Source: a virus | Length of the DNA: 21,918 nt | Virus record (IMG/VR): IMGVR_UViG_3300013130_001731 | Coordinates: 1 to 21,918 of that record | Strand: one strand, 5' to 3' | Shown: one piece after another, positions 1,696 to 15,380 of the stretch | How positions within the stretch are numbered: position 1 is the first letter of the stretch | How the letters are laid out: the number at the start of each line of letters is the position of its first letter | Position numbers and translations under genes: made by a program | The notes under the pieces: model-generated | What the model was told of the DNA's origin: nothing | What the model saw: only the letters and a program-made list of their open reading frames with translations | The model's database searches: none

Positions 1696-2568
1696 TTACG
1701 TTACAGGGGCTACCTGAATTTCGGCAATCGCATAGTCGTTGATAACCACAATGCCAATTTCCTCGTAGATGACCCAGCCCAAACGCAATTTCTTCGGGTC
1801 ATCCGCCGGAAGGACGGTGATGTCTTGCCGGATCGGGAACGCCCCAACATTTTCCGGGGAGGCGATAATCAGCACGCGGTTGTTTGGCATACGCGAGCTA
1901 ATGTGCACGTCGGCGGTCCAGAGGTGTCCGAACAAGCCGGTCGTGATAATCTCGCGTTGAGAAGCTTCGTCGAAGAAGTCCTTACCAAAGGTACGGATTG
2001 CGGCATACTGGAACGCATGGGTCACAATCTTCGCAACGACCAAATCATGCTGCTCAACGAGTCGGAACGCGGTGTTGATCGACTGAACGGTCAACGTTCC
2101 CATGTTCACAACCAGGTTGTTTCCGGTCGCTTCAACGGCTGCGATCAGCGCGTTGAAAATGTTAGTGTCTTCTTCCTTCTGGATAGCTTCTTTCGCCTTA
2201 ATTTGTGCACGGTCAACGATGTAAAATCTTCGGGCCTTGATCTCGCTCAAACGAACCGTGGGGTTCGCGGCGATTTCGAAGGTCGGGACGAGGATCTCTT
2301 CGCCTTCCTGAATCTGATCAGGCACAGCGCCTCGGCGGGACACAACGTAGGCAATCGCCATAACGTCGCGCTCGTACCGAGCAAGAGCACCCTGCGGGAG
2401 CTCGTCAACCATGAGCAGTTTTCGTCCGACAGCCTGATACTCAAGGCTGCGCCGGATCGGTTCCACCATTGCCTGCGCCAAAGCCACGCGACCTTCGTCG
2501 GTTTCGAGCGCCTGGGCAATGATCGTCTCTTTTTCTTGATCACTTAATGAATTCTTTACAAACGCCAT
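1696..2568 (-). CDS. Major capsid protein, HK97 fold
   Basis: A 290-aa protein forming the icosahedral shell. The start at 2568 follows a clear GGAG. An amphipathic N-terminal segment (1-50) precedes ARYERDVMAIAYVVSRRG (63-80). The region EEILVPTFEIAANPTVRLSE (90-109) and then RRFYIVDRAQIKAKEAIQKEED fit the E-loop and long spine region of HK97-like subunits. The C-terminal part has the usual pattern: a central helix (THAFQYAAIRTFGKDFF), then GHLWTADVHISSRMP, RVLIIASPENVGAFPIRQDI and GWVIYEEIGIVVINDYAIAE. The short length and lack of a long N-terminal delta domain mean scaffolding must come from elsewhere; the upstream protease polyprotein is the obvious candidate. It lies directly after the putative decoration gene and before a strong terminator, as expected for the most highly expressed gene of the block. 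The family call rests on sequence pattern only. Confidence 0.85.
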   Translation of the reverse strand: MAFVKNSLSDQEKETIIAQALETDEGRVALAQAMVEPIRRSLEYQAVGRKLLMVDELPQGALARYERDVMAIAYVVSRRGAVPDQIQEGEEILVPTFEIAANPTVRLSEIKARRFYIVDRAQIKAKEAIQKEEDTNIFNALIAAVEATGNNLVVNMGTLTVQSINTAFRLVEQHDLVVAKIVTHAFQYAAIRTFGKDFFDEASQREIITTGLFGHLWTADVHISSRMPNNRVLIIASPENVGAFPIRQDITVLPADDPKKLRLGWVIYEEIGIVVINDYAIAEIQVAPVT

Positions 2569-3319: not shown

Positions 3320-6300
3320 TTATTTTCTAAACGTTCTTTTCAACGATGCGTCGGGAAGCTTGTCTGCTTCCGCATTTTGCCGTCCCAATGTCATCATCGA
3401 TGAAAGCTTTTCTGCAAGGGTCTGATTAGCGTCACTCACGCTAGAGTTCGCGTTAATTATGACGGGCTGCGAAACACCCTCTGATACTGTGTCCAGTCCT
3501 TTTTTGCTTGCAAATACGATTTTCTCGTAGTCTGCAATCTGAGCAGGCTTGTAGGATTTGAGCTGGTCCACCTTGGTCTTGAGCTCTTTGGGTTCAATCA
3601 AACCCGCCTCGACCATGCGGCCTGCAACTCTAAATGCCTCTGCCTCGGACTGCTTGGTATCGCTGCTTTCGTTTGCGATAACAGTACCTTTTATATTCTC
3701 TTGTTTCTCAGGGGCGATTTGCTCGCCTTCCTGACCAATCAACTGTTTGTCAGCCGGAATACTTGGTTGGTCTTTAGGAGCATCGGGCTTGTCGCCGACA
3801 ACTTCTTTTTCGTGACCAATGTAAGTTCCTTCCGACTTGGTGTTTTCCGGTCCCTTTGCGTCAAACTTAGGTTCCTTACCAATGGTGGAACCATTCTGAA
3901 CCGGTTGAATGTCTTTATCGTCGGCTACGGGTTTCGCGTCGTTAATTTTCTTCTGAGCGGCTTTAATGCGATTGACCAAACTGTCAATTCGTGACCGCGT
4001 ACTATGAATGCCTCGCATCGAAGCGACTTCATCGAGTTCTGCTTCTTTCTGCATTTCTTCCGCCGTCATCGCCGTGTCAGTCTTTCCTTGACCCTTGTCA
4101 CCGCCGGTCATGCTATGGTCGCCGCCGGTAAATCCAAGTTCCTTCTCTTTGCCAATTTCAGCCGAACCGGAAGGAATTTCCGGAAGCGGCTTATCCTTCG
4201 GATTCAAATCCGATGGCTCTTTGCCAATCGTGGCTTGAGACCGAGGAACATCAGGCTTCGCGGATTTGGGAGGATTTTCCTTCCCAATCGCTCCGGCGTT
4301 CTCGCCGCCGGTATAGCTTCCAATCTCTTTCGTGTCCTGGACCTTCTTAACGTCAACGGTTGCCGATTGAGCACTCTTGTTGATCACCGCTTGAACCTTC
4401 GACAGGTCAAGAGAGATTTTGTTGACTTTTCCAAAACTACTATTCATTACAGAAGCCTCTGCAAAACCGTAACCCTCTTCTTCATCATCGTCGCCTTCTT
4501 TGAAAGACTCGTTCTCATCCTTGGGTTCGTTTTCTTTCTGTTCCGATTCGCCGCCTATTTCTCCTTCTTCTTTTTCTTCTTTTTCTTCACTTTTTTCTTG
4601 AACAGGAGTTTCGGCGTTCTCATGAGCAGGGGTTTCGTCTGGGGTTACTGGGTCAACCGGAGCTGCGTCACCACCAGTTGGTTTTATTTCGACTGTTACA
4701 CCTTTGCCAGGTTCGGCCGCAGGTTTCTTGGTTTCGCCACCCATTTGAGCGGCACCCGCAGGAGCAGCTGTCGGTTCAATAACCGACTTCATACTTCCGT
4801 CGCCGTTCGCATTGCCCTGACTGACCGAGTCCATCGGAGGAGTCATTTCAACCGGTTTGGTTGCCTCGGCCGGAGTGCCTTCTACAGGCGGGGTTTCGGC
4901 AGGAGCCTCCATCGGGACTGCGTCAGCAGGAGCTCCTTCGGCTGGAGTGGCTTCAGGGGATATTGCACCTTCGCCGGTTGCCTTTTCAACCGCTTCGCTG
5001 ACTTGGACTGCGATATCTTTTGGAAGTTCAATGGTGATCATTTCGCCGCCATCGAACGGATCGTCTTGCCCGATACCATCCGTGGGAGGAGCCTCTTCAA
5101 TCGGGGCTCCGCCAGGACCACCCGGTCCTTCTGGCATATCTGAGGTTGTCGCTGTGCCCAACTCGTCGGCGAACATGTCGTCCGGTCCAGCCAGAGCGAC
5201 TTTCAAGAATTCGCAAACTGTTGCGGCTTGATTAAGACCCATGCCTTCGCGTACCCGGTCTTCAATGCATTCCTCAGAACCGGATTTGTCGCTCCAAGCG
5301 TCTGCAACTTTCAGGGCAATCTTGGTCGTGTAAACCCCAGCATTTTTGAGTTGCTGGCAGACACAATCAATGAGCTTCTGACCTTCGCAAGGTCCGCTGA
5401 TTGCCAACGCATCCTCACCGTAGCGGCGAGCCAATTTTTCGCGGCAGGCTTCCATTGGGAACTTCTCTCCGTATCCACCGTAGGCAACTTTGTAGTCGCC
5501 AATAATGTTTCCGGTCTTGGCTGCTGTTTTCACCATAGCTAAAGCTCCGGCCTGTCGCATCTGGTTAATGACCTTCGTCTTCTCAATAACGTCCATTGCA
5601 TCAAAGGCTTGCTGGGTTACATTGACTTTGGCGAGAGACTGGATAAAGCTCTCTTTTGCTCGCTGACAGCTTGGGCAATCCAATGAGGCAACACGGGGCT
5701 GCCAGGACCATTGGGCATAGATGCGTTTGCCTTCGCGGTCAGTTGCAAATTCGACTTTGTATTTTGTGCCCGTATCCAGGCAGATGTATTCGTTCTTGCC
5801 GACTTCAAGGGTGTTTGCTTTTCCGGTTGCCGGACTGATGGTCCCAAGTTTGACTTTCTTTTCGGCCAACTTCTGCATCATCTTTGGAGTAATAAGGGTC
5901 ATTGCAGCCACCTGAGACATTCCGCCGCCACCCATACCACCCATATCTGCACCGCCACCGGCCGCGCCAGGAGCGCCGCCAGGAGCTCCACCGGCACCTG
6001 GCATTTCGAAGCCTTCTCCGGCTCCGACTTTGCCACCTTCTTCCGCACCCTGTTCTTTGGTTTCCGGTATCATTCCGGGCCATTTGGTTACATCAATGTG
6101 TACTTTGTAAACAAATTCCGCACCGCACTCTTCGTTGTTGCATTTGCCCCTGCCCGCAACGACATCTACGTCGTCGGTTCCGCAAACTGGGCAAATGGTT
6201 CCTGGAGGAGCTGGTTCCATTGTGTCATCGTCTCCACCCATTCCCTCATCTTCGGGAAGGTTGAAGCTTTCGACTGGAGGCTGTTGAGCAGCAGCACCAG

Positions 6301-9300
6301 GAGCTTGTGGCATAGTCGCCCCAGCACCAGGACCGCTACCTAATCCGCCTTGGCCACCGAACTCGCCGCCGAACTGGGCGGTTTTGTTCATGGCCGCGGC
6401 TTTCTTAACAACCGCGTCTCGGGATGCAAAAGAACAGGGCTTTTCGCCTGGACCTTCTGGCTGACCGTCCATATTGACGATGTCCTCGACTGGCCCTTCC
6501 AACTCGTCTCCGGTTGCTTCAGGACCAACCTCTGGTTCGCCGCCAAAATCGAGGTCATCTTCGCCAACTCCTTCGTCACCTTCGCCCGCTTCTTTAGCGT
6601 CAATGATGACCGTGCCATCATCGTAGACCTTAATGTCCATTGTGACAGTGGCGACAGGGGTTCCGATTTCGCCCTCAATCTGTTCTTGTGCGAATTTATT
6701 TACAGAGGCAATGAACTTGCCTTTGTTTGACTGAATGTCGGCGGCTTTTTTAATTCCCAAATCTTCGAGCGTGGCCCGAATCTGATAGCGGCCATCTTCG
6801 GGCTTCTCAAGGTCGGAAATAGCCTGCTCAAACGCGGCTCGCTTGTCAACGACATTGTCCATTCCGACTGCGACGGACATGCCGTCGATAATTTCTTTGA
6901 CTTTCGCATCGACACGAGCCATCGCTGTCTTGTTGCGGATGACGGTCGAAACCGCATCAATCACGTCTTCTGCTTTCAGCCCCGTTTCCGCATTCGCGGC
7001 AATGGAGAAGATAAGAGAATCAACGGTCGTCGGTTCGACATCCTTAGAAGCCAATTTGGTGAAATAGGCAACCTTGGCCGCAATGCGGGTCAAATCTTCG
7101 CGTTTGTGGGGCAATGCGTTGATCAGTGCCAAATAAACAAACTTGTCTTTCGCGTTCTTGTTGTCTTCCAGGGAAGCCAGAACTTTACGAATCTCGTCTG
7201 GGCTCTTGTGATACTTGGCAATCGTTTCGGCAATAGCCTTTTCCGCAATCTTGATCAGGGTTTTCGGATACTCTGCCATTGCCCACCGCTTGATGCCTGA
7301 AGGACGTTTGTCAGCCTTAAGCTGGCCTTCGGTAATGACATCGGGTGTAACGAAAGAATGGTTGGACAGAAGATCCCGAAGCTGGGCTTCTGTGATAACC
7401 TTGGTATAATCCTCGCTGACCTTTGCGCCAACTGCTCGGCTGGTCTCGGTCCATTGTTTTTCGGTAATGACATCCGGGGTGTTGTTGAACCGGATAATGC
7501 AGTCATCTACCGCAGTAGCAAGCTGTCCCTCAGTGATGACATCGTAGGTTCCCTGCCGGACCTGTGGCGAACTGGAAGTCGTGTCATTAACGTCTTCTTT
7601 GCCCTTACCAATCTGTTCATTGCTTTCGGTAATGCCTTTGTAGGTCTCGCCGGTTCGAGGGTGAAGGTCGATATCCTGCTTCATGAGCTGCTTTTCGGTA
7701 ATGATATCGAGGTTTTCCTTCCCCGCCGCTGTTTTTAGGGTATTATCAGTTGTCATAGGTCCATTATTCTCCTTAACAAAGTTTTCTTTGAAAATTTCGA
7801 TGAAAGCCTCCTCAGGCTTTTCCCGTATCAATTTTTGGATGTTTTCCGGAAATTGGCTGATGTGGGCGTACTTGAGAATAGTGTCTCCCCGAGCAATGGT
7901 TACGGATACCCCATCCTCAGCATGGGCAATGATAGCCTGGCGAGAATTTGGATCATTGGGATTTTCCAACGCCGTAAACGATTTTGTAATCATTTTTTTG
8001 CTCCTGGCGAGTCTTTTGACGGAATCAACTATTTCGCTCACTTTTCTTTGTATATTGGCGTGTCCCCCAGAAAAGTCCTTTATTTTATTTGATGAAATTT
8101 TGGGCAGGGTCATGGTTCCCATGCCACCCAAATCCTGAACCTGCGAAGAACCCGCTGCCTCCGGCGACGGAGTTATCGGGGCAGGGGCTTTGGGGAAGGT
8201 AGAAACGGGCTGCATAGGAGCCGGGGACGCTCCCTCCAAGACATTTGGTGAGACAAGGTTTCCATACCCCATTTCCATCAGTTCGTCCGTCGATTCTTGA
8301 ATTTGAGCGATAATCTTTACGATGTCGCTGATGTACTCGACGGAAACCTGGTCTTTCTGTGCAAACATACTCTTGGCGACTTTTTCCAAGTCATCCATCG
8401 ATTGCTTGAGAAGCTGGAGTTCTTTGACCCCGGCTGTTTTCTTCATTTGCGTGTCGTCGGTCTGGATTTTCTCAGACAATTTCTCGATGCTTTGCCGAAG
8501 CTGACCCAGCTTTTTTGTAACCTCTGGAACGTGCAAAATGCAAGTTACACCACAAGTATGACAAGCAGGATTAACAACAAACGAATTCTCCACGAATTTG
8601 AGTCCATAGTTATGCTCGAAAACAGGGTAATCGGAAAGTTTGAAGCTCTTGACATCATCTTTGGTTGAGCCACAAATTGGGCAGGTTTCGTCTAAATCAC
8701 TTACACCGCTTTTGTGATACTCGCATTTATAGGCACCCGATACCTTCCTGTTTTTCTGATTTTTGATATGGCTGCAATATTCCGACTGATTGTGAGCTTT
8801 CCGGTGACAAACAGAACAAATACTATACTCGACACTACACCCCATACTTGTGTTTGACACAGCGAGATGATTAACACAGTAGGAGTGGTCTTCTTCAACT
8901 TCTATATCGTATACTGTTCCATTGAAATCAACTTCTTCTATTTTTTTGACCGGTCTTAACACAATATCTTTTGTAGAATGCCACCTCGCCGGACCAACCT
9001 CGTTTATTTTAGCCTGTTTATAAATAAGCTTTTCGCGTAAAGCTTGCGATGTTGTTAATCCAAAAATAACTTCGTGAACAGGTTTGTATCCCCATGTTCC
9101 TGTGTTTTTTCTAATTCTGTACCCTGTTCGTATTCCTATTTTTGATAATAGAATTCGCAATTGACTTGCTAAACCGGCAGAGACTATGCCGAATCCGTAG
9201 CTTTTAGACTTAACATTATATCCATCACCTTCCATAAACCCAGCAATAAGCGAGGATGTTTGATCTGTAGTCAAATCCATAAGTCTTTGATTCAACTTCT

Positions 9301-10462
9301 TTTTATCGCTGTATTCGCCGCATTTGTCGTAGAACCACTGTGCAATCTCTTTCCCATAGAGTGAAACTCTTGTTTGTGAAGCCTCGGGGTAAAAATTAAC
9401 CGTAGGTTTATTCGATGTCGGGAATTCTTGGGACAATAATTCTTCACACTTAAATGCGAGGGTATCCCTTTCATTGTGTGAAAAATTGAATATCACGCCG
9501 TTTCTTTTTCCCTGTCGTTTATCATAACTACCTTCAGCAAGGAATAATCCGATAAGAAAAGCCTGTCCATCAGTAATATATTCTTTTTCTTTTTCGCAGA
9601 GATATCTCGGTTCAATAAGAAAATCACCTTCTTGTATCTCATTGGCTTTTATTTTCTGGATATACTGGTGCTGTATTTTTTCACCTCGTGTGTTATGTCC
9701 TTTTACAAATCTTCTCTGGAATGTTTTTACTGTTATTCTACTGTCTTTTTTCTCTGGTAGTTCCTCACCACATCCACAGGCACAAATATTAGGAAGTCTA
9801 TAAACAAACAAATTGTGATATGATGTGCAAACGAGCGGTTGTTTAATCCCTTGAGCCTGTATCGACAGCATAGGGTAGGAATATCCCCTTTGCCTTATTC
9901 CAAGTACCTTCCTAATGTTTCCACGTCCAGATATGACATAATCACCATCTTCTATGTCGCAAATATTTTTTTCCGTTCCATCAGACATTAATACAGGAGC
10001 ATCGCCAGGAAAGCATCCGACGATGTATCCTTCTTCAATGCCTCTGGCTAATTTCGGATAGGCGACTTTATCTACGCGGGCAATAATGAAAATGCCGCCT
10101 GCAGCCTCGTCATACCACGAATGAACCACATCACCTTTTGCCTTCTCTACGTCATCATTTTGGTGATTTGTAAAGATAGGTACGCCAGTAAATGTCGGGG
10201 AAGCGAGACGAAGTTGTTCGGCGCTGAAAGAGTCGCCGTTGTCGTTAGGCTCATCTTTTTTGATGGCGAAGATTTTCACGAAAAGGTGGTCAGGATACTT
10301 CGTCACTGCCGTGTTCAGGTCGAACCCGCCTAAATCCGAATCCTTAGTAGTCTGGGCAACTTTGATGTTGTCCATATTGAAGATAGTCCATGACTCAGGC
10401 TTATTGAGAGCCTGAACGGGAACGTGGTCAAGACTAATTGTTGCGGTCTTAAGAAATGCCAT
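3320..10462 (-). CDS. Giant prohead protease-scaffold polyprotein (2380 aa) with intein
   Basis: The ATG at 10462 follows AGGA and overlaps the stop of the 89-aa gene by 14 bases; the frame is open further upstream but has no better start. Residues 1-149 and 538-650 form a prohead protease-like domain split by an intein. His100 (IFTNH) and Ser539 (TSMGCSVEY) fit the His and Ser of S78/S80-type prohead proteases. Cys/His clusters follow (CSVC...YCSH, CPIC, CHTC...C). Then come a coiled coil (about 645-735), a Pro/Ala linker, six I-T-E motifs (918-1048), a helical region (1055-1260), an acidic stretch, a Gly-rich segment around a zinc-ribbon-like CPVC...CNNEEC (1424-1446), Cys-containing helical regions to about 1757, long Pro/Ala/Glu-rich disorder, an acidic Glu/Lys run (1957-1996), I-G-K-E repeats (2058-2265) and a helical tail. 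Protease-scaffold fusions are known in phages and herpesviruses, but this length is extreme. It may be processed into several core proteins. Confidence 0.75.
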   Translation of the reverse strand: MAFLKTATISLDHVPVQALNKPESWTIFNMDNIKVAQTTKDSDLGGFDLNTAVTKYPDHLFVKIFAIKKDEPNDNGDSFSAEQLRLASPTFTGVPIFTNHQNDDVEKAKGDVVHSWYDEAAGGIFIIARVDKVAYPKLARGIEEGYIVGCFPGDAPVLMSDGTEKNICDIEDGDYVISGRGNIRKVLGIRQRGYSYPMLSIQAQGIKQPLVCTSYHNLFVYRLPNICACGCGEELPEKKDSRITVKTFQRRFVKGHNTRGEKIQHQYIQKIKANEIQEGDFLIEPRYLCEKEKEYITDGQAFLIGLFLAEGSYDKRQGKRNGVIFNFSHNERDTLAFKCEELLSQEFPTSNKPTVNFYPEASQTRVSLYGKEIAQWFYDKCGEYSDKKKLNQRLMDLTTDQTSSLIAGFMEGDGYNVKSKSYGFGIVSAGLASQLRILLSKIGIRTGYRIRKNTGTWGYKPVHEVIFGLTTSQALREKLIYKQAKINEVGPARWHSTKDIVLRPVKKIEEVDFNGTVYDIEVEEDHSYCVNHLAVSNTSMGCSVEYSICSVCHRKAHNQSEYCSHIKNQKNRKVSGAYKCEYHKSGVSDLDETCPICGSTKDDVKSFKLSDYPVFEHNYGLKFVENSFVVNPACHTCGVTCILHVPEVTKKLGQLRQSIEKLSEKIQTDDTQMKKTAGVKELQLLKQSMDDLEKVAKSMFAQKDQVSVEYISDIVKIIAQIQESTDELMEMGYGNLVSPNVLEGASPAPMQPVSTFPKAPAPITPSPEAAGSSQVQDLGGMGTMTLPKISSNKIKDFSGGHANIQRKVSEIVDSVKRLARSKKMITKSFTALENPNDPNSRQAIIAHAEDGVSVTIARGDTILKYAHISQFPENIQKLIREKPEEAFIEIFKENFVKENNGPMTTDNTLKTAAGKENLDIITEKQLMKQDIDLHPRTGETYKGITESNEQIGKGKEDVNDTTSSSPQVRQGTYDVITEGQLATAVDDCIIRFNNTPDVITEKQWTETSRAVGAKVSEDYTKVITEAQLRDLLSNHSFVTPDVITEGQLKADKRPSGIKRWAMAEYPKTLIKIAEKAIAETIAKYHKSPDEIRKVLASLEDNKNAKDKFVYLALINALPHKREDLTRIAAKVAYFTKLASKDVEPTTVDSLIFSIAANAETGLKAEDVIDAVSTVIRNKTAMARVDAKVKEIIDGMSVAVGMDNVVDKRAAFEQAISDLEKPEDGRYQIRATLEDLGIKKAADIQSNKGKFIASVNKFAQEQIEGEIGTPVATVTMDIKVYDDGTVIIDAKEAGEGDEGVGEDDLDFGGEPEVGPEATGDELEGPVEDIVNMDGQPEGPGEKPCSFASRDAVVKKAAAMNKTAQFGGEFGGQGGLGSGPGAGATMPQAPGAAAQQPPVESFNLPEDEGMGGDDDTMEPAPPGTICPVCGTDDVDVVAGRGKCNNEECGAEFVYKVHIDVTKWPGMIPETKEQGAEEGGKVGAGEGFEMPGAGGAPGGAPGAAGGGADMGGMGGGGMSQVAAMTLITPKMMQKLAEKKVKLGTISPATGKANTLEVGKNEYICLDTGTKYKVEFATDREGKRIYAQWSWQPRVASLDCPSCQRAKESFIQSLAKVNVTQQAFDAMDVIEKTKVINQMRQAGALAMVKTAAKTGNIIGDYKVAYGGYGEKFPMEACREKLARRYGEDALAISGPCEGQKLIDCVCQQLKNAGVYTTKIALKVADAWSDKSGSEECIEDRVREGMGLNQAATVCEFLKVALAGPDDMFADELGTATTSDMPEGPGGPGGAPIEEAPPTDGIGQDDPFDGGEMITIELPKDIAVQVSEAVEKATGEGAISPEATPAEGAPADAVPMEAPAETPPVEGTPAEATKPVEMTPPMDSVSQGNANGDGSMKSVIEPTAAPAGAAQMGGETKKPAAEPGKGVTVEIKPTGGDAAPVDPVTPDETPAHENAETPVQEKSEEKEEKEEGEIGGESEQKENEPKDENESFKEGDDDEEEGYGFAEASVMNSSFGKVNKISLDLSKVQAVINKSAQSATVDVKKVQDTKEIGSYTGGENAGAIGKENPPKSAKPDVPRSQATIGKEPSDLNPKDKPLPEIPSGSAEIGKEKELGFTGGDHSMTGGDKGQGKTDTAMTAEEMQKEAELDEVASMRGIHSTRSRIDSLVNRIKAAQKKINDAKPVADDKDIQPVQNGSTIGKEPKFDAKGPENTKSEGTYIGHEKEVVGDKPDAPKDQPSIPADKQLIGQEGEQIAPEKQENIKGTVIANESSDTKQSEAEAFRVAGRMVEAGLIEPKELKTKVDQLKSYKPAQIADYEKIVFASKKGLDTVSEGVSQPVIINANSSVSDANQTLAEKLSSMMTLGRQNAEADKLPDASLKRTFRK
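3668..4291 (-). repeat. I-G-K-E short-motif repeats in polyprotein tail
   Basis: Residues 2058-2265 of the polyprotein hold seven copies of an I-[GA]-x-E core: AIGKE (2058), TIGKE (2078), EIGKE (2102), TIGKE (2193), YIGHE (2214), LIGQE (2241) and VIANE (2261). They sit in disordered, Pro/Lys/Asp-rich sequence. Copies of TGG[ED] (YTGGEN, FTGGDH, MTGGDK) are interspersed. Irregular spacing argues for repeated linear motifs and not a folded tandem domain. Possible roles are protease cleavage sites or docking motifs for capsid or scaffold partners. Confidence 0.7.
7319..7711 (-). repeat. Six I-T-E motifs, candidate prohead cleavage sites
   Basis: Residues 918-1048 contain DIITEKQL (919), KGITESN (942), DVITEGQL (974), DVITEKQW (997), KVITEAQL (1021) and DVITEGQL (1041), spaced 20-32 residues apart in polar linker sequence. 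The core matches the (I/L)-x-E consensus after which the T4 prohead protease cuts. Here the motifs lie in the same polypeptide as a protease domain, so self-processing is an attractive reading. They may instead be conserved binding motifs of the scaffold. Confidence 0.7.
8852..10015 (-). other. Intein with LAGLIDADG endonuclease in the prohead protease
   Basis: A 388-aa intein occupies precursor residues 150-537, from CFPGDAPVLM to HLAVSN, and is followed by Thr538. Block A begins with Cys1 and block B contains TSYH (a TxxH motif). Two dodecapeptide motifs, LIGLFLAEG (intein 154-162) and LIAGFMEGDG (256-265), mark a LAGLIDADG homing endonuclease. Block F is seen as GTVYDIEVEEDHSYCV. The residue before the terminal Asn is Ser and not the usual His. 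A CACGC...GHN element near intein residues 78-107 looks like an added zinc-binding piece. The insertion is directly before the probable catalytic serine of the protease, so activity should require splicing. The DNA looks richer in A+T than its flanks. Confidence 0.92.
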
Positions 10463-10718
10463 GTTTTTCCTTTTTTGTATTCTGAGCGTATGTCTCGCTG
10501 AACTCGTATTGTTCCCGAGTCCAAGGTCGCTGCATCTGGAACGAAAGGTGTTGCCATTCTTTTGACACCAGGCTTTTCTGTTCCGGAGTAAGCGGGAGGT
10601 CAAGTATGCCGTCCTGGTTCTGAATAGTAAGCGTCTCACCGTCGAAGCTGATTTGGCCTTGAACAGGAGCGGCAATTTGAGCCGTTTTCTTGCGGGCTGC
10701 GATAATAAGTTTAGGCAT
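10449..10718 (-). CDS. Small unknown head-module protein, 89 aa
   Basis: The ATG at 10718 lies one base after the stop of the previous gene, with AGGAGG six bases upstream, so its translation is coupled to the 258-aa gene. The frame extends further upstream, but the ribosome site decides this start. The protein begins MPKLIIAARKKTAQIAAP, carrying a KTAQ motif at 11-14. A small beta-rich segment follows (GQISFDGETLTIQNQDGILDLPLT, shown here as one continuous hairpin-like region about 19-42). The C-terminus is charged and helical. No known family is recognised. It overlaps the start of the protease polyprotein by 14 bases, so the two are made together, which suggests a partner in head assembly. 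The coding call is good and the function is unknown. Confidence 0.7.
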   Translation of the reverse strand: MPKLIIAARKKTAQIAAPVQGQISFDGETLTIQNQDGILDLPLTPEQKSLVSKEWQHLSFQMQRPWTREQYEFSETYAQNTKKEKHGIS

Positions 10719-12020: not shown

Positions 12021-15000
12021 CTATGTCCCTATCAGAATTAATTGTCCCAGGTTCCCCTCTAACTCTTTTACGACAATTTTTGTTTCCTCCGGCCATGGAG
12101 AATCCTTATCGCCGGTTCGAGCAAAAGCGAGCTTAATCAACTCTTCGTTATCCTTACTATTCTCAGCCGCCTTCTTATAATCCTCCGCAGCATCCACAAT
12201 ATTCTTGTAAATCATATCCCGAACTTCTTCCGGGTTATCTGTTACCGCGTCCTCTTTAAACCGTAGGATTCTCCATCCCACATTGGCAAGCTTTTGGTCT
12301 CGGATTTGGTCCCGTTCCTGTGAATCAATCCGCTGGTGCCAAACGTTCCCGTCTGCTTCGACTCCGACCCCGATTTTGGGATAGGCAAAGTCGATCAAGA
12401 ATGGACGTTCTTCGCCAGGGACTTTTACCTGGTACTGTCCAAAAAGTTTGTACGGGACTTCAAGCTGTGTCAGTAATTTGTACATCTGCTGTTCCAACTT
12501 CGTCAGTTTAATCATTCGAGGTGGGGGAGCTTGAGCATGCTCTTGTTTCTTGTTTTTACCACGTTTGGTGATTTTCGGGGCCGCTGCAGCTGTCGCGCCC
12601 ATTCCGCCGGGTACTCCGCCAGTAGCTCCACCCATACCGCCCATCATTTCGCCACCAGGTGCTCCACCGGGAGCTCCGCCCAGGCCAACCGGAGGTGCCA
12701 TGCCGCCCTCCGGACCCATCGGTCCACCGCCACCGAGTCCACCCATGCCACCGAGTCCACCCATGCCACCCATCGGTCCACCCGCACCGCCCGCTCCACC
12801 TTTTTGTCCCATCATCATTCCGGTCGCAGAGACCATCTGCTGTTCTTCGCGAAGTCGTTGAATTTCCGTGTCATAGTCCAAATCGAGTTCTTCAAGAATG
12901 CATTGAGCACTGACAAAGCTTTTGTCGTAGCCTTGCATAAGAATTTGAATGTAGTTGGATTTGTCACGCAGCCGCATGTCATTCCACTTGATTTCAGGGT
13001 ATATGTATTCGGTGTCGCCACTGTTTTTGCTTTCTTCTTTGTCAACGAAACCTTGCATCATTGCAACCGGAAGGAAAATGTAAGCTTCCACCCATTCCTT
13101 AAGAATGTTTCGCCAATTTTCGAGTCGCCGAATAAGGCTTTCCACACCAACTTGGGCAGAGTTGTATCCTGCCATTTCGCCGTTCAACAAAGCTTGGTTC
13201 AACATCATACCGTCAAGAATTTCTTTGCCCAGTTGTTCGAGCTCTTGGGTAAGATTGTGAATTTTTCCCGTATTACCAACAATAAAAGGTCTGCCGTGAA
13301 ATCTGACAATCAACAGATTATTGGGCACAGAGAAACACCACACTTTTCCTGCGTAAGGAATACGATCAATACTGGTGACTTCTCTTTCATTTATTGATTT
13401 AATATCTGACCAATAGACTCTATATGTTTCTCCTCTTTGCTTCGTTTCGTTGCCTTTATCGAATCCTAATTTTGGCGAGAAGCCAAGCCGGAATATAATC
13501 TCACATACATCATCACCAAGTTGTTTAGACGCGGTAGTATATTTGAATTTATTGCCGTTGAGCATGGCGGCAGAATCACCATCTCCATCCATCATTGCAT
13601 CAAATAGAATTTGTAGATGTTTTTTGGGGAGATTCAAAATCCAACGAGGTATTTTCTTCCCTCTACATCCTATCCCGAATTCTTCCGCCATATATCGTGA
13701 TATCTCAACAGAATTGATTATAAATGTGTTAACAGGAACAAACCCTCTTTCGTCTTTATGTGTAGAATAAGAACTGTAAACCTTACGAACAATATTCTCA
13801 ATCTTGCCATAACAGGGTTGGTCACTTTTTTGCGTTATCCCCATTGCTTGAATCTTTTTATCTTCGGACAATCCACGGTTGCTCTCTATCTTGATGTGTC
13901 CCTCCGATAGGAAATACCCTGCAAATGTCAGAAATTCATCAAGTGACAGGTGAGATAATTTTTCTATTTTTTGATAAGGAAGGACATCGGGAGTTGCTCC
14001 ATCCCAATCTACCTGTGAAAGGAATTTGTAATGTCTTTTCATATCTTGAGACATCACGATTTCGTAGTTATGTTTCAGTGATTTACGAGTAAACATTCGG
14101 TGGTTTGGAGTAACGGGTATATTCATGCATTTACTTCTAAAGTTGTACAGACCGCCATATACATCTGAATCGTAATCATATTCATACCGTTCAATATAGT
14201 TGTGGAACTCCATTTTTCCAGTGTTAGCGTTGTAGGTTGCAAGTTTATCCGATTCTTTCACTTCCCTGTATGTTCTCCATCCGTCTGGTGTTAAAACTTG
14301 CACATTGTCATCGTCTGGAAAACAGGCACCGTACCATTCATATTCGAAGGCGTGGTGTGTGACAATGGTAAGGTTCGGGTCATTAGCAACAGCAGCGAGC
14401 TGTGAGACAACATCGGCAATAGCTGCATCATCGGCAGGACGCTCTGCATCCCCGACCTTAACGACGCGAATGGGAAGAATCAACCGTTCCGCCACAATCC
14501 AGTTGGCGGTCATAATTTTGGTTTTGTATGCGAGTACCGTAAACAATCGGCGAATCAAAGAGATACCGTAGGTTCCATAGGGGCTCGCATTGTGTTTGAG
14601 ATGACTAATGCACCGTGGGGATAGAGGGATAGGTTGTCCAGAAGCAACTAACTCGACAATTTTCGGGTCGAGGCGCTCGTAGATATGTCGCGGCTGTTTC
14701 CGCTGAACGATAGCCCGCAACTCGTCGTCGGGCATCAAGGCATAGGCCGGCTCGCCCGCAATCATGCTGTCTTGGACGACGACGAAATCGGGGTTAAGTA
14801 CACGGATTTTCCCGAAGGAACCATCAGGGTGGTTACATTGTTCGGATTTGCCATGTTCCTTGACGAAGCCTCTGCCTCCGCATTTGGGGCATTTAATTTC
14901 GAGGAATGGGAAAACGTCGCCCAGCATGAAGTATTCGTGGCTGATGTAGCTGAGCCATTTGTTCAATTCGAGTTTCTTGACGAGCTTTTCGTAATATCGC

Positions 15001-15380
15001 AGGATTTTCCGGCTCTTACACTCTAGCTTAAACCCGTTCATTGGGAAGTTGGCGTAGAAGTCAATGCCTGCCCCTACTTTGGGTTCGTTCTCATAATAAA
15101 ATCTGGCCCACTGGTAGGTTTCTTTTCGCTTGGCAGGAATTTGCCAGTTTTGTGGCGTGTGAATGGGGGAGAAGAACGCGGGTTGGGTTTGTGTTACAGA
15201 AGCTCCCGATCCCATATACTGTGCGTACTTGGTAATCGGAACATAGGCAGTGTCGCTATGAGCGTATTTGCTTCTGGACTTGAGGCCGGAAGTTGTATAT
15301 CCTCCATTTGCGTTAACCACACGTTGCCGGTTGGTCGCGCTTCGGTCAGGCAAAATCATTCTGATTTGGCGAATGGGCAT
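12021..15380 (-). CDS. Portal protein with intein and C-terminal Vsr/DUF559-like nuclease
   Basis: A 1119-aa precursor (768 aa after splicing) starting at 15380 behind AGGGAAAGGA. Residues 60-352 and 704-850 fit a large-phage portal: NEPKVGAGIDFYANFPMNGF (about 98-117), a Cys cluster (C164, C167, C182, H184) before IRVLNPDFVVVQDSM, SPYGTYGISLIRRLF, and IMTANWIVAERLILP. An intein occupies residues 353-703. After a helical C-terminal portal segment (EELDLDYDTEIQRLREEQQM) comes a Gly/Met/Pro linker (about 857-930), then a domain (958-1066) with FLIDFAYP, VGVEADGNVWHQ and GWRILRF, the signature of the Vsr/DUF559 branch of the PD-(D/E)xK nucleases. The portal forms the dodecameric DNA gate of the head and binds the terminase. 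A nuclease fused to it is unusual. The frame is continuous through the fusion. Confidence 0.85.
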   Translation of the reverse strand: MPIRQIRMILPDRSATNRQRVVNANGGYTTSGLKSRSKYAHSDTAYVPITKYAQYMGSGASVTQTQPAFFSPIHTPQNWQIPAKRKETYQWARFYYENEPKVGAGIDFYANFPMNGFKLECKSRKILRYYEKLVKKLELNKWLSYISHEYFMLGDVFPFLEIKCPKCGGRGFVKEHGKSEQCNHPDGSFGKIRVLNPDFVVVQDSMIAGEPAYALMPDDELRAIVQRKQPRHIYERLDPKIVELVASGQPIPLSPRCISHLKHNASPYGTYGISLIRRLFTVLAYKTKIMTANWIVAERLILPIRVVKVGDAERPADDAAIADVVSQLAAVANDPNLTIVTHHAFEYEWYGACFPDDDNVQVLTPDGWRTYREVKESDKLATYNANTGKMEFHNYIERYEYDYDSDVYGGLYNFRSKCMNIPVTPNHRMFTRKSLKHNYEIVMSQDMKRHYKFLSQVDWDGATPDVLPYQKIEKLSHLSLDEFLTFAGYFLSEGHIKIESNRGLSEDKKIQAMGITQKSDQPCYGKIENIVRKVYSSYSTHKDERGFVPVNTFIINSVEISRYMAEEFGIGCRGKKIPRWILNLPKKHLQILFDAMMDGDGDSAAMLNGNKFKYTTASKQLGDDVCEIIFRLGFSPKLGFDKGNETKQRGETYRVYWSDIKSINEREVTSIDRIPYAGKVWCFSVPNNLLIVRFHGRPFIVGNTGKIHNLTQELEQLGKEILDGMMLNQALLNGEMAGYNSAQVGVESLIRRLENWRNILKEWVEAYIFLPVAMMQGFVDKEESKNSGDTEYIYPEIKWNDMRLRDKSNYIQILMQGYDKSFVSAQCILEELDLDYDTEIQRLREEQQMVSATGMMMGQKGGAGGAGGPMGGMGGLGGMGGLGGGGPMGPEGGMAPPVGLGGAPGGAPGGEMMGGMGGATGGVPGGMGATAAAAPKITKRGKNKKQEHAQAPPPRMIKLTKLEQQMYKLLTQLEVPYKLFGQYQVKVPGEERPFLIDFAYPKIGVGVEADGNVWHQRIDSQERDQIRDQKLANVGWRILRFKEDAVTDNPEEVRDMIYKNIVDAAEDYKKAAENSKDNEELIKLAFARTGDKDSPWPEETKIVVKELEGNLGQLILIGT
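12183..12509 (-). other. Vsr/DUF559-like nuclease domain at the portal C-terminus
   Basis: Portal residues 958-1066. The order is a helix (KLEQQMYKLLTQLEVPYKLF), strands QYQVKVP and RPFLIDFAYP with Asp997, then VGVEADGNVWHQ with Glu1008 (or Asp1010) and His1015, then DQIRDQKLANVGWRILRF. This strand-helix order and the D...E-x-D-G-x-x-x-H...D-x-x-x-x-x-x-L-x-x-x-G-W-x-[IV]-L-R-F pattern are characteristic of Vsr-like (very short patch repair) and DUF559 nucleases. Key acidic and His residues are present, so activity is plausible. Confidence 0.8.
12733..12768 (-). repeat. 18-bp tandem repeat in the portal Gly/Met linker
   Basis: CCGAGTCCACCCATGCCA (plus strand) occurs twice without interruption. 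On the coding strand it encodes a repeated GMGGLG unit within a 70-residue Gly/Met/Pro-rich linker (12591-12812). Such repeats expand and contract easily, so linker length may vary between relatives. Confidence 0.85.
13272..14324 (-). other. Intein with LAGLIDADG endonuclease in the portal
   Basis: A 351-aa intein occupies precursor residues 353-703, from CFPDDDNVQVLTPDGW to GRPFIVGN, followed by Thr704. Cys1 is the block A nucleophile, and block B reads VTPNH (a TxxH motif). Dodecapeptide motifs FAGYFLSEG (intein 134-142) and LFDAMMDGDG (240-249) indicate a LAGLIDADG homing endonuclease. Block F is GKVWCFSVPNNLLIVR. The residue before the terminal Asn is Gly and not His, a variant seen in some phage inteins. 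The removal point joins EWYGA to TGKIHNL. The coding sequence is visibly more A+T-rich than the portal sequence on either side, in keeping with separate origin. Confidence 0.92.

Follow-up and report, generated by a model that had tools for sequence, protein, structure and literature searches.

The portal protein encoded in the viral DNA analysed here continues in frame into a nuclease domain of the Vsr/DUF559 type, and comparison with related sequences confirms that this portal-nuclease fusion is genuine. The gene lies on the minus strand of a window of 21,918 nucleotides, which is the whole stretch under study (positions 1 to 21,918 of IMG/VR record IMGVR_UViG_3300013130_001731). An earlier note on this DNA had described an unbroken frame from the portal core through a Gly/Met linker into a Vsr-like domain with intact acidic and histidine residues. 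The description is borne out, including the numbering of Asp997 and Glu1008, and the frame can be divided as follows.

12021..15380, minus strand: whole open reading frame (portal, intein, linker and nuclease), 1119 amino acids, ATG start, no internal stop
14319..15380, minus strand: N-terminal part of the portal, residues 1-354, with phrog_16240 and Portal_Mu matches and 55-65% identity to relatives
13263..14318, minus strand: intein, residues about 355-706, with a weak LAGLIDADG_3 match
12801..13262, minus strand: C-terminal part of the portal including the crown-side end, residues 707-860, with a phrog_2739 match at residues 714-849
12516..12800, minus strand: Gly/Met/Ala/Pro linker, residues 861-955, with a basic motif at its end, assigned by composition and fast-evolving
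12126..12515, minus strand: DUF559/Vsr-like PD-(D/E)XK nuclease domain, residues 956-1085, assigned by profile, model and fold matches
12390..12392, minus strand: codon of the predicted catalytic Asp997, Asp in 99 of 99 distinct sequences
12357..12359, minus strand: codon of the predicted catalytic Glu1008 (in E-x-D1010-G), Glu in 99 of 99 distinct sequences
12336..12338, minus strand: codon of His1015, His in 99 of 99 distinct sequences

In profile searches, phrog_16240 matches the window portal with E=3.1e-33 (residues 180-345) and intein-free relatives with 1e-37 to 1e-49. The window intein is flanked by GA and TGKIHN, which are adjacent and uninterrupted in the intein-free relatives. In the latter, phrog_533 (495 positions) is aligned up to position 483-487, nearly to its end; the portal thus reaches its customary C-terminus, and the linker follows a complete protein. 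The portal profiles stop at the linker start. Residues 862-940 of the linker comprise 36 Gly, 11 Ala, 9 Met and 9 Pro among 79 residues, and the tether is about 75-200 residues long. For the C-terminal domain, the Pfam search gives a significant match to PF04480 (DUF559) at residues 993-1061, with 40.4 bits (E=2.9e-10) against a curated cut-off of 20.6 bits.

The whole protein matches 45 loci in viral contigs, and the nuclease is in frame in all matches with a complete, uninterrupted portal gene. Intein-free relatives have 736-768 amino acids, and the other relatives hold one to several inteins. Using the nuclease alone as the query, we found 80 loci, of which 79 are fused to a portal and one is cut by the contig end. 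A broader portal alignment led to a second clade (B) of about 70 contigs of up to 379 kb, which also carry the fusion, except for contigs that end before the domain and for locus L205. Contigs of clade A reach 494-548 kb. Altogether, 186 locus ORFs show the architecture (with overlapping loci counted repeatedly), well beyond what chance would give, and they yield 99 distinct nuclease sequences. The fusion that the earlier note had proposed to look for in metagenomic phages is thus seen across both sister clades and regardless of inteins, in every member found whose gene is neither truncated nor interrupted. Relatives with the domain as a separate gene, which the note had named as a sign of misassembly, did not turn up, apart from the one contig of about a hundred (L205) with an in-frame TGA in the linker. 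In the clade B portals L152-L222, an extra conserved segment of ~100 residues (SGRG..LPE.YDGF) separates linker and nuclease. No cultured phage with the fusion was identified by tblastn searches of INPHARED with the portal or the domain, and a scan of genome contigs gave no relative among hosts or prophages. The fusion-bearing viruses are a branch of large, uncultured tailed phages.

Homologous portals without the nuclease are found in Bacillus phage G and nine relatives and in LR745208 and nineteen relatives (30 outgroup portals, L250-L279), and a DUF559 search of phage G and LR745208 themselves found none. One phage G-like portal (L254:5995-9042) is in one frame with an apparent downstream gp15-type protein, again without a nuclease. 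In the portal-core tree, which has long branches and should be read with caution, clades A and B form one group with SH-aLRT support of 99 (98 for clade A alone). As the two clades group together and the outgroups lack the nuclease, the tree pattern fits a single gain of the domain. The nuclease tree separates A from B with full support, and within each clade the distances among portals are correlated with those among nucleases (r 0.85 and 0.90, p=0.0005), which indicates that nuclease and portal co-diverge.

The AlphaFold2 model of the nuclease domain (pLDDT 93) has the REase core fold. It is similar to NGO0050 (3hrl, Z 10.1), I-Bth0305I (3r3p, Z 9.9) and Vsr (1vsr, Z 7.8). By sequence, the closest solved structure is I-Bth0305I (E=7.7e-7), and NGO0050 is matched with E=2.8e-5. 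In the model of the full portal (pLDDT 50), the portal part is too weak to place the tail. Among 69 sequences, the residues Q, D, P, E, D, G, W, H, D, R, D, L, G, W and R are invariant or nearly so. The earlier note had asked whether catalytic residues are lost across relatives; none of the 99 distinct nuclease sequences has lost D997, E1008 or H1015. With the significant nuclease profile match and the fused relatives, each of the three refutations that the note had named thus turned out in favour of the fusion. For close pairs, dN/dS is 0.02-0.08 in the nuclease, 0.02-0.08 in the portal and 0.07-0.24 in the linker, with synonymous sites saturated in several pairs; these ratios indicate that the nuclease is under purifying selection. 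Inteins favour conserved active sites. The extra intein of L046 and L145, located exactly within the E|CDG catalytic motif of the portal nuclease, can therefore be counted in favour of an active enzyme. The nuclease domain is thus apparently catalytically active, as far as can be judged from conservation.

The gene is located in a head module: the gene for the major head protein lies further downstream in the window, and TerL is present in all 23 records that hold relatives. Two downstream genes are relevant here.

3320..10675, minus strand: head polyprotein of 2451 amino acids, with an intein within a probable prohead protease, followed by a long low-complexity scaffold-like part (intein matches)
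1696..2568, minus strand: major head protein (phrog_2522, E=8.4e-67)

The protease assignment in the polyprotein is presumptive and is taken from the order of motifs. Short motifs recur along the polyprotein, ITE.Q five times and IG[KHQ]E six times (as many in 0 of 2000 shuffles); they look like sites of a maturation protease or like repeats of a scaffold.

Portals form dodecameric rings with the C-terminal crown turned towards the inside of the capsid. The fusion could therefore hold as many as twelve copies of the nuclease where the DNA channel opens into the head, or, in view of the tether length, let them reach through the channel before filling. We propose that the portal permanently carries, at its C-terminus, a flexible tether with an active DUF559/Vsr-like endonuclease. 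This enzyme would nick or cut DNA that is branched, damaged or protruding and would otherwise obstruct packaging or the joining of the tail. It would be the functional equivalent of a covalent version of the T4 gp49-gp20 pair, or of the virion nuclease gp4. In T4, gp49 associates with the portal and releases branched DNA that has stalled (PMC3012670, PMC9958956), and gp4, as cited in PMC7824862, is a virion-associated REase-fold nuclease that is required for morphogenesis. The crown and wing of the T4 portal are inside the capsid, in contact with DNA (PMC9958956). By analogy, and because the portal profiles end where the linker begins, the nuclease tether is most likely located at the inner mouth of the portal. 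For the fusion, we infer the dodecameric state, the lumenal position, the catalytic activity and the packaging role.

The best reading, that the tethered nuclease processes phage DNA in packaging or head completion, is close to an even call. The lumenal side is away from TerL and from the branches of the concatemer, which counts against this role, as does the failure of the prediction that the nuclease replaces a resolvase. RuvC, Endonuclease_7 and RusA were searched for in nine large records. RusA-like matches are present in all five large clade B records (two above the cut-off and three below), and the clade A record G024 has Endonuclease VII; none of the three was found in the clade A records G005, G006 and G014. 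These records may be incomplete. Other resolvases are thus not consistently absent, and the portal nuclease was rejected as the sole resolvase. As there is no correlated loss of other resolvases, debranching is one possibility among others. In a filled head, an active nuclease would also have to be kept in check.

To our knowledge, portals are regarded as non-enzymatic rings. Both domains of the fusion are known, and we found no description of a portal fused to DUF559, Vsr or a nuclease in the open-access literature, so that, as far as found, their fixed combination is apparently undescribed. It is a natural covalent design that places an enzyme at the DNA gate of the capsid. A conserved and apparently active portal nuclease makes the packaging role of portal-associated nucleases directly testable. 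Somewhat short of an even chance, an entire clade of phages may have a portal that is itself an enzyme, with a nuclease array built covalently into the packaging gate and essential for finishing heads. If so, the portal would not be a passive channel.

A minor possibility is that the nuclease is a virion-borne effector. The head protease or the opening of the capsid would set it free, and it would enter the cell with the DNA and attack the DNA of the host or of competitors. A tether that is flexible and evolves fast would fit such a release, the polyprotein with the probable protease is encoded directly downstream, and its ITE.Q and IG[KHQ]E repeats may be cleavage sites. The closest neighbours of the nuclease by profile also include, with a weak match, the C-terminal nuclease domains of the anti-phage proteins ProA/Hhe. 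However, portals remain in the capsid, and the sequence is strongly conserved, without the diversification usual for conflict effectors. Moreover, the window portal was found to lack a protease site of the T4 type ahead of the nuclease, with no [IL]-x-E beyond residue 850.

It is unlikely that the nuclease acts in termination, by making or trimming the headful or pac cut as a partner of TerL, like the HNH proteins of HK97-like phages. Such a role would agree with a single copy in the packaging and head module (DUF559 scores above the cut-off once per genome, in the portal, in 9 of 9 large records, next to one sub-threshold match) and with the position of TerL upstream of the portal where both positions are known. 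However, the RNase H acidic motifs of TerL (HLDPA, [YF]D and DD..D) are conserved in all 13 aligned relatives, and the C-terminal position of the nuclease is predicted to be lumenal. These intact motifs, and the presence of TerL in all 23 records, speak against the idea that the portal nuclease stands in for the terminase nuclease, and it was rejected as a replacement. Separately, TerL frames of ~1000 amino acids with probable inteins occur at loci L067-L074; the packaging genes are intein-dense.

It is very unlikely that the domain is a catalytically inactive remnant, which only binds DNA or anchors the scaffold. D1010 is changed in 3 of 99 sequences, to Glu in one and to Cys in two, as a remnant might permit, and W1014 is changed in one of 99. 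In contrast, D997, E1008 and H1015 are never lost, and dN/dS of the nuclease is similar to that of the portal.

The earlier note had also suggested that the nuclease supports homing of the inteins. Spread of inteins, or of the nuclease itself, by homing is barely plausible, even though the nearest solved structure by sequence is the catalytic domain of a homing nuclease and the portals are intein-rich (L012, L013, L015, L077 and L105 hold up to several inteins at different sites). The nuclease is independent of inteins, as it is kept in more than 20 intein-free clade A portals and in all of clade B, and the portal inteins match the window intein, which has its own weak LAGLIDADG match. Moreover, the nuclease is essentially single-copy and strictly co-inherited with the portal. 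EDxHD homing endonucleases are mobile, in introns or intergenic and variably present, whereas this domain is fixed in the portals of all untruncated relatives. On the sequence evidence, homing is thus unlikely.

That two genes were joined by an error of assembly or annotation has a negligible probability, and this reading was rejected because the fusion is the same in about 99 distinct sequences that come from independent assemblies. Two loci speak for it. L205, the only uncut relative that separates portal from nuclease, has an in-frame TGA at the linker/nuclease boundary (8669-8671), which may be a sequencing error, recoding or a real split; in L042, unlike in all relatives, the portal gene is split over several frames.

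Among known systems, the portal of Bacillus phage G (gp14, phrog_16240) is homologous, with about 31% identity, and also has a Pro/Gly-rich tail after the crown region, but it stops after this tail and has no nuclease, as do its relatives (L250-L259). The nuclease shares its fold with NGO0050/DUF559 and E. coli Vsr, and has the D...E-x-D-G-x-x-H pattern of DUF559; those enzymes are free-standing, whereas this one is fused to a portal. Similarity to the EDxHD homing endonuclease I-Bth0305I extends to fold and sequence, but I-Bth0305I is intron-encoded and mobile, and the domain described here has a fixed place within a structural protein. Endonuclease VII of T4 (gp49), bound to gp20, is likewise a nuclease at the portal with a proposed action on DNA in packaging. 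In contrast to the fusion, it is a separate protein of another fold, and its association with the portal is non-covalent. Finally, the head-completion nuclease gp4 shares with the fusion the REase fold and the place in the virion, but it is a separate, TnsA-like protein of T4-like phages.
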